This document shows, one piece after another, positions 18,730 to 54,800 of a stretch of DNA of 64,000 nt. How positions within the stretch are numbered: the first letter of the stretch is position 1; each line of letters starts with the position of its first letter. Origin of the DNA: Cristatella mucedo (Eukaryota; Bryozoa; Phylactolaemata; Cristatellidae); the NCBI GenBank assembly GCA_009760855.2, contig WPIO01000016.1:1966001-2030000 (forward strand), in the 5' to 3' direction. The position numbers and the translations under genes are program-made. The notes below the pieces were generated by a model. That model saw nothing but the letters and a program-made list of their open reading frames with translations, was not told the DNA's origin and did not search any database.

Positions 18730-19977
18730 CTAGCCTTTAGCCTGCGGAGAATCGGCAACCCGTGCCTTCGATGAGTGTCGGTGATCACTGTGTTCTCTTG
18801 ACCGGGATCTGGACATTTTCCGCCGCTTGTGTTTCTCCACAGACATGGACCTATCTCTTTCCTTCCTTTCCGACGGACTCCTCGGACCTGCACGATGACG
18901 ATCGCCTCTGTCGCGCACAGGTGAACGGCGAGAGTGGTCCTCTAGCTCTTTACTTGGCGAGTGGCGCTTATAACTTCCGGAAGTGGCAGTGCGCGCGTCG
19001 TCACGCCTCTCCCGGGAAGGTGGTCTCCTATGACCTTCTGTTGAGCCCGACTTGTGCATCTTCGTCTTATCATGTGACCTCGATCTCTTTGGCCGATCTC
19101 GAAAATCTTGATGCTTGTCTCGTGACCGAGACCTGTCTTTTCGGCTAAACGTGTCCTTGTGAGGTGACCTATCACGATGCCGATCCCGCGAACTTGACCT
19201 TCAAATATACCGGCAGCAAAATGCTCAGACGATAATCTAAATAAATAGTCATTAAGAAATGGCAAACTTCCCCCAAAATCACTCACGTCAGGGATCAGCA
19301 ATCATCATGTATTCCAAATGCACCTAATGTGACACCCATGCATGATTAATTGATATACATGATAATCAATATTGATTGTTCAGGCAGGACACTATTATTA
19401 TAATAATACATTTCTTTTGTATGGCGCCCTAAGAGAACTTAATCTCCATTCAGGCGCTTCACGTATACCTCGGGGGCTCGAGCCCACGATCTCGGCCAGA
19501 CCTTGGTCGGGGCGAGCACCTTGACCACAGGGCCAAACCAGCTCGGCGGCACTAGCAGAAGGACTTGCATTTAGCATGCATGAGGCTGTCTATACAGTGC
19601 TCAGCTCAGCTTCTTCACGCACCGTGTGGCCTTTGGGGCATGCATAACGCCTGCATGCACACACAGAGTGCAAGTTAACTTAGGTGTAAAAGTGTATTAA
19701 AACGCCTTTCGGTAGCACATTAATGACGGCCAATAAGCCACTTTAGGCAAGTAATTGGAAAAGAACGTCTGACGTTAGCTACTGTTTGAATTATCCTTAT
19801 AATGCATTCATTATTCACTAGAAGATCTGATTTACACCGCTAGATGGTGCGATACTATGCAATTCGACCCTTTCCTATCGAGGAGTCCTTGGCCCCTCTG
19901 CTTGAGACACAGAGCTACTGGCCTGACTGACATAACACGTGATATACCCTCGCAAGTCTAACAAACTCACTTTGATT

Positions 19978-21317: not shown

Positions 21318-24300
21318 AAGCGCGTGAACACTGTAAGCAGGAGGGAAAAAATCTGCGGCCTTTTGTGCCGGTAGCTAGCAGTAGCTCTTGGACCTTGGCT
21401 GCCTTACGTGAGTGCAGTTTCACCAACCCCCTTCCCGATGCACTAGTCGCCCGACACAAAAATCAAGCTCGGCCAGAAAGGTACGTACGTCAGAAAGCCA
21501 CGAGGCAGACCACCTTAGGTGAAACATCAGCCAGCGTGCTATTTTGCACCAGCAAGTGCTCACTCACCATTGGCTAGCTAGCTAGCTAGCTGCACGGCAC
21601 CCCACGCCCTAAGACCGCGCCATGAGGGCTTCCACGCAGAAACCCTCTCAGCTCTCTCCGGTCCGTTGAGGGCTGCACTTTAACCGATCTTGCTGCGAGG
21701 CAGACGGATACTCTTAGCCGCCGGTGCTGCTGCATTTGCTAAGCTCAGCGAGCATCACGCCGCTTGCCGAGCGGCGACGGCGATCATCGCGAGATCACGC
21801 ACGCACACACACACCTGTGCCGATGCCTGTCATGCGACCGCGATCTTCGACGATGCTCTTTCGCCGAGTCGCCAGAGTGCCGAGAATGCGGAGGCGGCGA
21901 CCTGGCTGAGCTGCCGCCTCGCCGCGACTTGCGCTGCCGCTCCTTCTCGCGCTCGAGGGCTTGCCGGTAGCCGCCGCCGTCGTCCCCGCCCACTGGCTCG
22001 TCCTCGGGCCGCCTGCCGCTGGCTGGCCGCCTGCCGCTGGCTGCCTCAGGCTCCCTCCTGACGAGGGCAAGAACGAGTAGCCAACGTCTACACGTGGCCC
22101 AGCGCTCGAGCGAAAGCCGGGCAAGACTCAGGCAACATGCAAGCCGGACACGCAGATGGACGGAGAAGGAAGGAGATCCGCACACACGCGTGCACACATT
22201 GGCACACTGCGACAGACAGACAGAGAGACGAATACACACGGGGTGGGCGTGGAGACAGGCCGCAGCAGAATCAGTCAGGACTAGGGCGAGCACACACGGA
22301 CGGACGAATCGCTGTGGTCGGTCACATACTTGCCGCACTGACCTCGGCGCCTGAGATCCGGTCGGACCTGACGGCCTCTGCTGCAGACGCCCGCCGCTTG
22401 CCGCCGCCTCGTCGGCTCCGCCTCCTCCTCTGCCGCGATCGCCAACGCCTCCGCTTTCTCCGTTCTGCTCGTCGCCTCCGTACTCCTCTTCGTCTCCCGC
22501 GCCGTCGCCTCCTTCCCCTCCTGCCGCACCGCCGCCGACAGCACGGGGCGGTGGCGGCAGACCTCGCATTTTTTGGTCCAGATCCTTCTGTATGGGCACC
22601 GGTATGCGAGGGAACAGGGCCGAGTACCAGTCGAGCTTGACCAGGAATTCCCGGCACATCTCGCCGATCGTCATCACGCAGCCACCGCCGGCCTTCACGT
22701 CTATTTCCTACGACGAAGGCAGCACTCACTGGCTAAACCGCAGCATCGTGGCAGGCAGGCCCTACATGCGACAGCACGGTGTGGACGAAACGCCACATCG
22801 ATGCGGGCTTCGAGCTTCTGCGCATGCACGCCAGCCCCCCCCCCCCCCGACGCTCACGTGGCGCAGCAGGGCAGGCAGGTCGTGGCAGAAGCTCGTGCAG
22901 CTGGACTTCCCCTACATCCTAGACATCAGAGCGGACTGATTGAAGAGGGCAGCACTTCACCGAAGGAGGAGGCGCCGCAGCAGAAGCACGAGAATCGCCA
23001 TCGATCGCGGTACGAGAAATCGACAGCAGCGCCGGCAGCTGGTGGGCTCACACAGAGAGCTCGCTCGCGCCGCGAGCGCACTCGCGGCTGCTTGCTCGGG
23101 GCCGATTTAGCAGCAGGTGCACCGCTAGCCAAACGAAACTGAGAAAACTGCCGAGCTAGCGTACACAGCGCCGGCAGCTCTGCGTAACCGCTCAGCCCGC
23201 GGCACTGACCTCGTCGTCGTCCAGATACGGCTCCATCCAGTCCCACAGGTCGGGCGGCGGCTGCGTGTAGCGCACGTACATGAAGCCGAGGCCGCGTATG
23301 TAGGGCGAGTCGGAGTGATTGAGCAGGCCCGTCAGCTGCTTGCGCGTGAGCTTGAGCGTGTAGAGCTTGTACAGCAGGCAGAAGGCGCTCGACACGATGC
23401 CGCCGGCGCCGACTCCGCGCACGCCGCCGCACATGCCCGTCTGGCCCGACAGCTTGCGACTGCCCTTCTCCCACGGCTCCAGATGGGTCACCTGTCAACG
23501 ACGACGACGACGACGACGTAAGGACTCGCCAACTGGCTCTCTCGCACGTCTGCAGGCTGCTAAGGCGGCCTTCGCGCTGGCTTCAGCTGGCACTAAACAG
23601 CGAGGGGGGAGGGAGCATCTCGCGAGAGAAAAAAGTGGGCTCGCTCTCAAAGCGAGGCGCGCCGAATCCACGGCACCGGCGCACGTGTGCCACGTACGGC
23701 TAGGTCTAAATGAAACGTTCGATCGCTGGCGGTCGATGATTTCAACTTCGACTAATGTAATGTAATGTATCTCCGTCAGTAACTCCACAAAGTCACAAAG
23801 AACATGTGGGTGTTACGCAGGAGAGTTTTGTATAGCGCACTCACAGCCTAAGCGGCTTTCGGTACGAATTCGGTAGCCAACAGACTTAGTCTCACGCAAC
23901 AAAGAGAACTACTTTCGCTTGAAACAAACTTGGAACAAACTGGCGACTGAATGATTTATTCCCCCTCCACGAAGCACGCTTGCGCGATCGCCTGCGCTTC
24001 CTTAGACAGAAGCGTCTCTAGTCGCGGTTATCAAGAGCTGCCAGATTCAATGCGAGCGGCAGATTCAATGTGGGTGGGCCGTATCGCTCGAACGACGACG
24101 ACGAGAAACCGGCGCTTCGGGCGGACGACTCAGAGGGCCGAACACAAGCAATCTTAGCAGCTTGTGCAATCCACGCAGCTAATGGCACGTCGATGACTTG
24201 AAGAATGCCCAGTTCACGGCAGAAATAACCAGAGAAAACGTTTGGCACTAACAAAAAACCGCTCAAACGTTTCACTCAAACGGCAGCCATTAGCCTGCGC

Positions 24301-26930: not shown

Positions 26931-42866
<15,936 letters not shown>

Positions 42867-45834: not shown

Positions 45835-48800
45835 TCACTTGGCCAATTTTCCGATTTCCTTTGCTCGGCCCTTTGAATCGTCATTGTCATCGTCATCGTC
45901 TCCCAACTGGGAACCGCTGTTCATTTCGAGTGCCAACGCACGGACTACCCACGGATCGCTTTGAGCGCCGTTCTTGAATTCTTCACGTGTGATGAGACCG
46001 TCGTGGTTCTGAAATGTAGGAAATAGTAAGCGAAACATGCCTGCGAGTGTCTACTTGGAATATTCTAAGATGCTCAGCGAAGTCAGAGGTCGCAGTCGGT
46101 CTGCGGACTATTAGTAGTTACTAGTCGGTTACTAATCGATCCGACTGTTGCGTCGCTGACTCTTTCGTGATTTTGACTATCCTTAGGTTATTTACTGTAG
46201 TCGTTCGCTTAGAAGCCGCCGCATTGTTTTCTTAACGAGCTAGACGTCTTTACATGTCAAATCTCAGTACGTAATTAATTATGCGAATGTTTCTCGTGTT
46301 CGTACGTTGAGACTTCTGGCTGCTCTCAGTGCTGAGATGCATTGCTGCACATGAACTCTTTATATTATTTGGAATACTTTACTTTAACGAGTGCTAGAGC
46401 TAATATTTCCTAGTTACTATTACTTAGTACTAGAGCTATATTTTTTCACAATTTAAGCTCTTTCTCTTGCCGATGTAATCGCCAGGCGCAACCTAGGCCG
46501 TCTCACCGATGCAGATGACACCTAGCTGTGCCCGTGTTTTGATACCTTTGAGCCTCCCACCACTGTAAATTCTCTCAACTCCCTTGCTGCCTATATTGCT
46601 GACGTTCGTACTTGGATGGCAGCAAACTTTCTCACATTGAATGATGATAAAAACCAACATGCTAGGCTTGGGCAAATCTAGTGTGCTTTAGAAATTGGAA
46701 AGCTGAACGCTCAACATGACCTTGGCCAGCAAATCTCATGTAGCAGCTGCACAAAATCTGTCTTGTTCCAAAGTGACCTTTCACTAGATAGCCACATTAG
46801 CACCGAAGTCAAGTCTGCGTAGCATTACAAAACTTTCACGTACTTAACATTGCAAAATGTTCGGACCTGTTTAGACAAGGATACTGCATTCAAATTGGTT
46901 CAGGCATTTGTAACGTTCCGTCTCGACTTTCGTAATTCACTGCGCACAGGTCTACTAGCCTATCCAATCAGGCGCCTGCGGTTAGTAAAAACTACGGCCA
47001 GGCTTGTCTGTCGTAAGCGTCTCAGTTGCCTCATCACAGCACTTCTCAGACCACCACCTGCACTGGCCTTCAATTCAAGCAGCAAATTGACTTAAAGGTT
47101 TTGTCCGTCGCCATCAGGCCCCTTTATTCTCTGGCTCTGACTTATAAGACCTATAAGAACTATGACCTGCGACCTACCTGGCTCTGGCTCTGACCTGTGA
47201 GTTAACTAAATGCGAGATCTCAAAAAAAAATTGAGGCTCGTATGAGGTATAGGTACACGATTAGATTCCGAAAAGAGAGTAGTACGATGCTTAGCCCGGT
47301 AGGGGAGTAGATCTGATTGGTAGGCTGGAACCAAATAATGAAGGAACCTAAAAGCGAGTGAAAGAACCTTGAAGTCGATGCTTTGCTTGGCTGGGAGCAA
47401 GTGCATGTCAGCCTAGCAAGAGATTTAGCTCTCCGAGGGTGCTATACAAGTGTATTGCATTATTATTATTATTATTGCATGGAATTTTTGATGTCGCAAG
47501 TTATGTTTCGTCTGAGACATCTTGAGCCGGTCTTGGTGCATAGCGAAAGAGTTTTCTCGATTGCCGTTTGGATTTGCACCCACCGGTCGGTAACTAGGCG
47601 GTCAGCGCTCGATGGTAACAATAATAACTAAGCTCAAACTCATGTATGGCGCCCTAAGAGAACTTGAATCTTTTTCTATAGAAGAGGCTCGAAAGGAAGC
47701 ATATCAGCTGGTCAGCTGGTCAGCTGATTAGCATATCAGCTGGTCAGCTGATATGCCCAAGTGCAACTTGTAGCGGCTTACGCGTATTTAGACAATTCAC
47801 CCGTTTTAAGCCTATTCTGCGAAGAACGTTTTTGCGTTTTCCACGGTGGAAGGGTGAAGGTGAAGGCTGATTTTCAGGCGAACGTGCCGCACGGCTGGAG
47901 CACCGAAAATTCGGTGGTCGCACCAGTATGGCGGCTGCTTTCTGCCATCCACACTGGCAGCCCACTAAATGGCCGACCTTCGCCTTATAGCAGGTCGGAA
48001 CGGGCAGCCTGCTAACGGCGCCTGGTCCGAAAGCCCACTTGTTCTTATTTGGGATAGCACGAGGCCAGTGGATGACCGCAATAGTTGTAAGGTGTTCAGA
48101 AGGGCACGGCGGGACGTTTGTCCCGCCTATCTCTCGATATCTCTGCGGAGCACTCGTGGCCTTGAGTTCCAGCTCTTTCCACTAAAAGCCTATTGGGTGA
48201 AACGAGGGCCTTCGAACGGCTTTTTTTTCTTGTTTTTTCACCCAACTACCGGGCAAAAAGCCGGTGTCAGACTGACGAGAGAGTGTAGAGCTTTAAAAGA
48301 AAACGACGCTCGGCCTCGAGGAGCGGCAGTCGACGGCCCGTCGCCCGCGCTTGCGCAGAGGGTCGCCCAAGTGAAAGCGGGGAAGGAGAGAGTCGACGCA
48401 GCTACCTTATCCATTTGCTTGAAGATTTCCTCGACTCGCCTCTCCGGCGAGCTCATAGTGGCGCCGCCACCGTCCTCGTCCTTGACACTGTCACCGAGCA
48501 TGGCGTAGATGGCGTGCACAATCTTGATCATTTCCTCTCTCGTAATGCAGCCGTCGTTGTCAATGTCGTATAGCGTAAACGCCCCTGCCACGGACAGGCG
48601 GCGGCGAAGCTCAATCGACGACTCACAGCCCCTGTCCCCCTCGACGGGTGCTCAGCGTCCGCGCCCCCCCCCCCGCCGGGTGCCGCGTCCGTTTAGCCTC
48701 TCCGAATTCCTGTAGCTACAGCCCGATCTCGTCAGACACGAAACTATCTCAAAATTAGAACAAGACTATTGCTCACACAAAGCAAATCTCAATCAATAGT

Positions 48801-51800: not shown

Positions 51801-54800
51801 CGGCGGAAGTTCGGCGTCGCTCGCTTCTCGCTCCTAATGTGCATCCTTCTCCGACGCCGCGAGAGTCGCTCAGGACGCCCGCCTGCGCGAGGGGCGGACA
51901 CAGCCCAATCGAAGTCGGCGGCTTTCATTTGCATCTCGTCCTGGCGACGCGGTGGAGCCGACTCGGCCGCAGCAGAGAGGAGCAGAGCACTGCGGTAGGA
52001 GAGAGGCAGCCGGAAGTCACATCCAGACTGTTAGAGGTCACATTTCGCTGCACCCCCCCCCCCGTCAGAAGTCCGCGCTCCTCCTTCACCTCCTCAGTCG
52101 ACGTCATACGACGCGACATCGAAGCAGCCTGTGGCTGGCGGCGTTCAATCAGAGCGACGACTCGCGGCCGCCGGGAAGAACCTGAGGAAGGACGCGCCGC
52201 CGTCGCGTGCCAACGGTCAGCGCGATAATTCGCGGCTACCGGGGACGGCCGAGCGCATCGCCATGGCTGGACAGACGCTGACGAGCGCGGCGCCGGTGCG
52301 AGCAGCAGCCCGCGTCCGGAAATTGATTTTTTCCCAATAACCTTTCGCGGGGACGCCGCGCATGCGTCGCCGGCGCCCGCCCGATCGCCATTCTCCTAGC
52401 GACGGCGATTCGGAGCCCGGCGGGCGGTCGGCTGGGCCGTTGCGCCGTTGAGGCAGCCCCTTAATACCTGCCGTTCGCTGATGGCGGAGCGGCCATCTTT
52501 AATCTAGTTTGCTGAACGGCCCGCATTAGCCGCCGTCGATGCTGAAACCTTCTGGCTGTCGACAGAGTGCCGAGCGCCAGACAGAGCACAGAGCGTTCGG
52601 TCGTCGCTAGAGACCTGGAATAATTGCTCTCGCGGGAGCTTCGCCTCGCAAGGAAGCCGCTCGGCGCTCGGTGGCGGCCGCTCTTAGGACGACTAATGGC
52701 CGCCGTCGGGCCACGCCGTCGCGCGATGCGCACGCTCCACTCTCTACCGCTGCCAGGCGCCGGCGCTGCGCGGGCGCGAGACTCGGACGCGAACGAGCGA
52801 GTCGCCGCGAGCGAGTCCTGCGCTCAGCCTCCTGTGGCTCCGCTTCTGCTTCGCTTCCTTTTGGCTACGCGCCGCTTTTGAGAGACACTTTTCGTCGTCG
52901 TCTTAGGGCGCTCGCGAGCGTCGTCTTATCATCAGCGGCTGGAACGGCGCGCGAGCGCCGCCGACGATCGCCGCACGATCCCAGACGGCGGCTGCGGGGG
53001 CTTCCGCCGCGAGCGGCGACGCCGTGCGCGTGTGCAGTGGGCCGCTTATGCCGACGAACGTTCAGCTCGCTGTAGCGCCGGCGGACACGAATGGTGCAGC
53101 GCAGGCGCAGCGCAGGCGTCCAGCAGCCGGCCGGGCCTCTCCCGCGCGGCGGGCTCGGAGCGCGCAGCACACGGCAGAGCAGTTTCGCCTTCTCGCCGCC
53201 GAGAGCGAAGCTTCGAGACTCGGTGGCGCCCGCGCTCCCAGAGCGAGGCGTCAGCACCACGAGCCCACTCAGGTGTACCGCTCGCTCACTCGCTCACTCG
53301 CTCACTCGCCCACTCGCTCACTCGCCCACTCTGCAGTGCAGGGTCAGCTCGGTGCAGCCGCTCCCGCAGGCGTGCGCTGCTTAGGAGCCGGTGCTTACGT
53401 TTATGTTCAGAGCTCCGGAGGGACAGTCCTTCAGGAAGTTTCTGTACCTAGAAGCCGAGCGCAGCTCGTCTGACTTCGCAGAGACGCTCGCGCGACTGAT
53501 ATTTTCGCAGCGACAGCGAAGCGGCGCTGCGACAGTGACATTTGATCTTCACTCGCACTGAACGGAGACTTTGGCTGTTTGGAGCAGGTCGTCAAACAGC
53601 GGCGCTGGGCGCTGACGCAGAAGCCGCGACGAGGCGGACAGCCGCGCAAGGACGCGACGCGCAAGGACGGAAGCTAGGCAGGAACGAATCGGAAGAGGTC
53701 AAGGTCAAGGCGGGGTCGGACGGGCTCCGTTCGACGCAGCGACGAGGCTCGGCTCTAACGTGGCCTCTCTAGCTCCAACATGGCCGCTCGAGCTCAAACG
53801 CGGCAGCCGCCGGCGAGCGGTGGCAACGCTGCTTCGCGGTACTTACCACTGCTTGATTTCTTTTTTCGTGACTACAAAAAGACTGGCCCAGATGTACGCA
53901 ACGGCGCGAGCTCGCAGACGTGCGGTCGCATTCATCAAAAGCTTTAATATATTAAGGGGTTTCTGCGCGCACAGCCCGAGGCGTTTGCCGAGCGAGCGCC
54001 GGAGTCAATCGACGAGCTACAGGGAGACCGTACAGAGAGCCGCTTGAATGCGCAGCTCCGGGCCGCCGCGCCGCCCGATTTCCATGGCGCTACAGCGCCC
54101 GACGGACGCAGCGCACTTTCTAGACTGAAAGAAGAGCCGCGAGGTCAGGGTCGGAGGTCGGTCAAGCGAGCGGCCGTACCGTTTCGAAATAGGCCGACTA
54201 AAGTGCGATCGCGTAGGGGTTCGCGATGCGTGAGCCAGCCATCGCCTCAAACCGCTCGTGGGCGGCAGCGCTCGGAGGCGGCAGCGATGGCTACCGCCAT
54301 CGCTGCCGCCCCCGAGTGCTGCCGTCCTCGGTTTGAGGCGATGGATGGCTCACGCATCGCGAATCCGTGAACTCGCCCACGCGGCCGTCGCTCGCGGGAG
54401 CGAGCGACGGCTGCCGTTCGCGGCCGCGCGCCGGTCGCCCCTCGCCGGCCGTTCCGAGCGACGCCAGCAGCTACGCTGCGAAGCTGCTGGAAAAGTGGGC
54501 ACGCTGCCGCGTCCGCGACCATCCTTGCCGACCGACAGCTCCGCACGACCCGAGCGAGAGCTCCTACACGGTCTGCGGTCACGTGACGCTTTGTCGCGCA
54601 CCGACGCCCTCAGCGAGCCGTAAGTCCGCGCGTCTGAATGTATCGCCAGCTGTACAGCAAGAGCGCATCGTAAGCTGCCCCAGTCAATCAGTCCGCCGCA
54701 ATGATAGTCAGAAAGGGTTGGTAATGGCGACGCGTGTCGTCGGTTCGCGTATGCTCAGCTCTTGCTATACTGACGGCTCGCGTCCAAGCCGACCGCGACA

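Follow-up and report, generated by a model that had tools for sequence, protein, structure and literature searches.

The minus-strand segment at positions 53871-53847 is almost certainly a real exon: a 25-nt coding micro-exon, the second of seven coding exons in a neuronal calcium sensor (NCS) gene. Judged from the sequence, it is very probably exon 2 of an NCS-1/frequenin gene, inherited with an old exon layout and included in essentially all coding transcripts. The find is ordinary in kind, a short exon completing a conserved gene. It completes the model of a conserved calcium sensor gene, whose frame runs into a stop after 30 residues when these 25 nt are left out. An exon of this size is easily missed by gene finders, and homology predictors could break the model at this point. 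All positions refer to the window, i.e., the whole stretch of 64,000 nucleotides analyzed here, which was drawn from a 572-Mb assembly (contig coordinates 1966001-2030000). The intron-bearing genes mark this genome as eukaryotic, and it is animal-like.

The gene model and its second exon

The gene was traced on the minus strand from start to stop, and the joined frame of its seven coding exons encodes 223 aa (Table 1). In this model, six of six introns are of the GT-AG type. The start codon in exon 1 is a predicted one, and the C-terminal tail is presumably not spliced any further.

Table 1. Coding exons of the NCS gene (window positions)
Exon	Position	Strand	Length and features
Exon 1	58241-58166	minus	76 nt; ends in phase 1 after ...LAESTY, with the first base of the Phe codon; donor GTGAGT; start codon predicted
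Exon 2 (micro-exon)	53871-53847	minus	25 nt; acceptor CCAGTCTTTTTGTAG, donor GTAAGT; motif match 9/9
Exon 3	53447-53399	minus	49 nt; starts in phase 2; EF-hand 1 region
Exon 4	50663-50574	minus	90 nt; frame and own-genome match
Exon 5	50263-50185	minus	79 nt; EF-hand 2; ends with the first base of a Trp codon
Exon 6	48584-48406	minus	179 nt; rest of the Trp codon to ...IFKQMDK; EF-hand 3
Exon 7	46008-45835	minus	174 nt with stop; EF-hand 4, acidic C-terminal tail

Exon 2 is flanked by TTTTTGTAG and GTAAGT and links the phase-1 end of exon 1 to the phase-2 start of exon 3. Over two split codons it encodes F-T-K-K-E-I-K-Q-W, whereby the Trp codon is divided TG/G at the exon 2/3 junction. Next to the GTAAGT donor stands an acceptor with a short pyrimidine tract, TCTTTTTGTAG, and a competing AG lies 11 nt upstream of it. 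If a coding micro-exon is taken as an internal exon of ≤27-30 nt, the segment belongs to this class by its length and by its canonical TAG/GTAAGT sites. Its coordinates, flanks, phases, and translation had been proposed in a first-pass annotation of this DNA and proved exact on re-reading.

The same annotation had the exon complete a segment conserved in the NCS family, and this is borne out in two ways: nine of nine family positions fit, and the exon brings a gain of 26 bits against the NCS-1 chain 4ov2_A. Exon 1 and exon 3 are separated by a gap of 4,718 nt with eight open 25-nt AG...GT candidates, among which exon 2 scores 9/9 and the runner-up 4/9. In 2,000 dinucleotide shuffles the top score was 8, reached once, and a score of 9 was reached in 0/2,000. 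Extended to the whole window and both strands, such a count gives 275 candidates including exon 2, one of which scores 9, with a runner-up at 6. When all open, frame-fitting candidates of the gap are admitted (length 3k+1, 4-118 nt), the family motif is found in one of 325, which is exon 2 itself. Other cassette exons in the gap hence drop out (motif in 0 of the remaining 324), and so does a direct join of exon 1 to exon 3, which runs into a stop after 30 aa. A simple splice-site filter, fixed after exon 2 was known, passes two cassette candidates in the gap; the other one lacks the motif. The family position sets were chosen with the family already known and after exon 2 was known, and, hence, these counts are a test of fit and no blind discovery.

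The comparison of bit scores with and without the nine residues is independent of these position sets. With the first 166 residues as query, 4ov2_A gives 191.6 bits with the nine residues and 165.7 bits without them, and the alignment starts at query residue 17 with them and at residue 24—the junction—without them. For the hippocalcin chain 5g4p_A, the loss is smaller (from 171.2 to 155.9 bits), and the alignment without the nine residues still starts at residue 16. Across the nine-residue segment, the alignment is ungapped for both NCS-1 and Frq2.

Subfamily, paralogues, and exon layout

Members of the NCS-1/frequenin subfamily carry four EF-hands, of which the first is crippled by Cys-Pro and three are canonical. 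In the protein described here, EF-hand 1 bears KDCPSG, the other three EF-hands are of the canonical kind, and Pfam EF-hand families match the sequence. Exon 1 carries MGVGSS after the predicted start codon, in agreement with MGxxxS, which we take to be the N-terminal myristoylation motif. NCS-1 (191.6 bits) and Frq2 (185.8 bits) lead the solved relatives among the best 60 of 299 matches, and lower scores are found for hippocalcin (171.2 bits), KChIP2 (146.8 bits), recoverin (135.4 bits), and GCAP1 (103 bits). Within these 60, similarity is thus best to NCS-1/frequenin over hippocalcin, recoverin, KChIP, and GCAP—a subfamily call that rests on similarity scores and not on a tree. The nine residues of exon 2 are identical in 7/9 positions to fly Frq2, in 6/9 to human NCS-1, in 5/9 to yeast Ncs1, and in 5/9 to the neurocalcin-like paralogue of the same genome, where human and yeast are the species we assume for the NCS-1 and Ncs1 chains compared.

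A search of the same genome with the first 166 residues yields 13 matching places, four of which are exons of the NCS gene itself and nine of which lie elsewhere; exons 2 and 3 have no match on their own. By our reading of the alignments, the nine other places are neurocalcin/hippocalcin-like (L029), visinin/recoverin-like (L031, L032), KChIP-like (L033, L035+L041), and GCAP-like (L038+L040, L039). At the sensitivity of this search, no second NCS-1-type gene was found. The neurocalcin/hippocalcin-like paralogue L029 (C442) shares 57% identity with the query over residues 17-130, but its sequence runs from the start to beyond the Trp in one exon, with no intron within the segment. L029 is the one paralogue judged at the segment—the N-terminal exons of L033 and L035/L041 lie outside the stretches covered—and, hence, this comparison shows just a layout that differs from neurocalcin.

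L031, L032, L038, and L039 have an apparent phase-0 acceptor just before [RK]-[DE]-C-P, where the NCS-1 gene has none; in the 3-kb stretches covered, no N-terminal exon was found for any of them. The shared acceptor suggests a common origin of these four, separate from genes of the NCS-1 and neurocalcin types. An EF-hand search with 58 rows led to 20 further stretches (L009-L028), in which neither an NCS paralogue nor any match below E 0.04 was found. Eight further loci of the EF-hand search comprise five that are calmodulin-like by eye (L001-L005) and two weaker EF-hand matches (L007, L008); L006 gave no match in the comparison of these eight. Two of the calmodulin-like loci, L001 (C115) and L002 (C486), show equal EF-hand scores and frames of 124 aa on different contigs. 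They might be either recent duplicates or alleles separated in the assembly.

The exon layout can be compared with that of human NCS1. The human gene has eight exons—seven coding and a non-coding exon 8—the junction between its exons 1 and 2 splits the codon of residue 22, and its exons 2-7 are identical in both protein-coding transcripts (PMC5004852). In the NCS-1 alignment, human residue 22 is the same Phe, and the human junction data fit a codon break after base 1 or base 2, which matches the codon and leaves the phase unfixed (PMC5004852). The gene described here resembles the human one in its seven coding exons, in the junction within the Phe22 codon (one species compared, codon matched and not phase), and in the F-T-x-K-E-[IV]-x-Q-W segment. 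It differs in that four additional residues precede the segment, the N-terminus diverges, and a 4-residue insert and an acidic C-terminal tail are present. The exon layout is likely old, with human exon 2 as the counterpart of the micro-exon, since human NCS1 shares the seven coding exons and the junction at Phe22 and keeps its exon 2 in both coding transcripts. Human exon 2 is expected to be similarly short and may also measure 25 nt.

The C-terminal tail of this NCS-1-type protein, with its acidic run, lies at window positions 45835-45940 on the minus strand. We take the tail to reach past the end of human NCS-1, the human C-terminus being shorter. Helix H10, which can insert into the crevice, is placed near the C-terminus of NCS-1 (PMC10732572), and the acidic tail may hence alter this helix.

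Among other animals, Drosophila Frq2 (CG5907) shares 7/9 micro-exon residues in an alignment spanning query residues 12-166. The fly has two tandem genes (PMC2837045), whereas one NCS-1-type gene was found here. In Ciona NCS1, exon 2 holds two guide targets and the EF hands fall in exons 3-7 (PMC10497037); this gene may be laid out differently. A literature search gave, among the matches listed, no paper on a micro-exon in NCS-1/frequenin.

Inclusion, skipping, and other joins

The segment encoded by exon 2 is the start of EF-hand 1, and its final residue aligns with human Trp30. W30 of NCS-1 lies at EF-1 and belongs to the upper part of the target cavity; the W30A exchange has a relevant effect on the interaction with Ric-8A (PMC10732572). 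As its 25 nt cannot be divided by three, skipping of exon 2 shifts the frame, which then reads ...LAESTYCTETS and meets a premature stop at nt 93 of the coding sequence, leaving a fragment of 30 residues. This confirms the frame shift on skipping that the first-pass annotation had predicted. In the skipped message, four junctions (at 125, 215, 294, and 473) lie downstream of the stop, and by the usual rule such a transcript is likely an NMD target. With a premature stop and likely NMD, skipping would therefore mean a lost product and no isoform.

We propose that exon 2 is recognized via its own good splice sites and that practically all coding transcripts probably contain it; EF-hand 1 would thereby receive its first residues, Phe22-Trp30 (human numbering). 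Skipping of exon 2 would lead to the 30-residue fragment, likely NMD, and loss of the product. Splicing, constitutive use, and ancestry are inferred in this scheme. Constitutive inclusion is most likely the better reading than a switch because the splice sites are good, the aligned relatives keep the segment, and both human coding transcripts contain exon 2. A non-3n micro-exon with constitutive use has been reported before: the 4-nt exon 2 of MPC1 (PMC9929638). As in our case, its skipping breaks the frame; the gene is, however, unrelated, and constitutive use is a prediction here. The NCS-1 micro-exon adds a further case of a short exon whose skipping breaks the frame and whose use is probably constitutive.

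The first-pass annotation had instead suggested that the exon could act as an on/off switch for the protein, and this is not supported: the donor is a consensus one, the acceptor is clear, and human exon 2 stands in both of the coding transcripts described (PMC5004852). In its fuller form, this idea describes a regulated cassette, whose tissue-dependent skipping would bring premature termination and NMD; through inclusion, the exon would set the NCS-1 level as a dosage switch. We regard this as unlikely. The length of 25 nt, not divisible by three, together with a frame that stops after 30 aa and four junctions downstream, would suit such a mechanism. In addition, 283/411 Drosophila exon-microexon-exon cases are alternatively spliced (PMC8042270), and Bak1 offers a precedent, as inclusion of its 20-bp micro-exon triggers NMD (cited in PMC9929638). 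Some room for regulation is left by these cases, as micro-exons of Drosophila are often alternative and the one of Bak1 acts through NMD. The splice sites of exon 2, the human transcripts, and the parts of the sequence inspected—where no sign of regulation was seen, in an inspection that was no systematic search for regulatory motifs—argue against it. If regulation did hold true, a synaptic calcium sensor would be turned on and off in a simple way.

Exon 2 might also be the last part of an alternative first exon, in which an in-frame ATG at 53935 would give a different N-terminus. Human NCS1 Var2 would be comparable, as its first exon is located close to the 3′ end of intron 1 (PMC5004852). 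Ahead of the micro-exon, 45 codons are indeed free of stops, with one ATG among them. By chance, however, an open frame with an in-frame ATG is found for 20.7% of gap positions, the frame extends at least this far for 29%, and the alternative leader would lack a myristoylation-like start, which makes this alternative highly improbable. That the resemblance of exon 2 to the family is due to chance is scarcely credible. The true transcript would then use another acceptor, e.g., with exon 3 extended by 22 or 79 nt upstream, and would lack the nine residues. Both extensions give open in-frame joins, but they encode YELRSASR or SPLRC...SASR with no family residues, the aligned NCS-1 relatives keep the segment, and none of the 2,000 shuffles equaled the motif score.

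As a separate observation, the ATG at 53935 (minus strand) is found just after an AT-rich stretch, ttaatatattaaag, inside a GC-rich intron.

Other features of the window

At gathering scores, no Rfam family matches the window. Long open frames on both strands at 30435-34703 resemble, by eye, the reverse transcriptases of non-LTR retrotransposons. Two frames were noted on the minus strand, an SR-rich one at 18730-19200 and a second one at 21784-22707; a stretch in the second frame presumably belongs to a PRPF38-type splicing factor.
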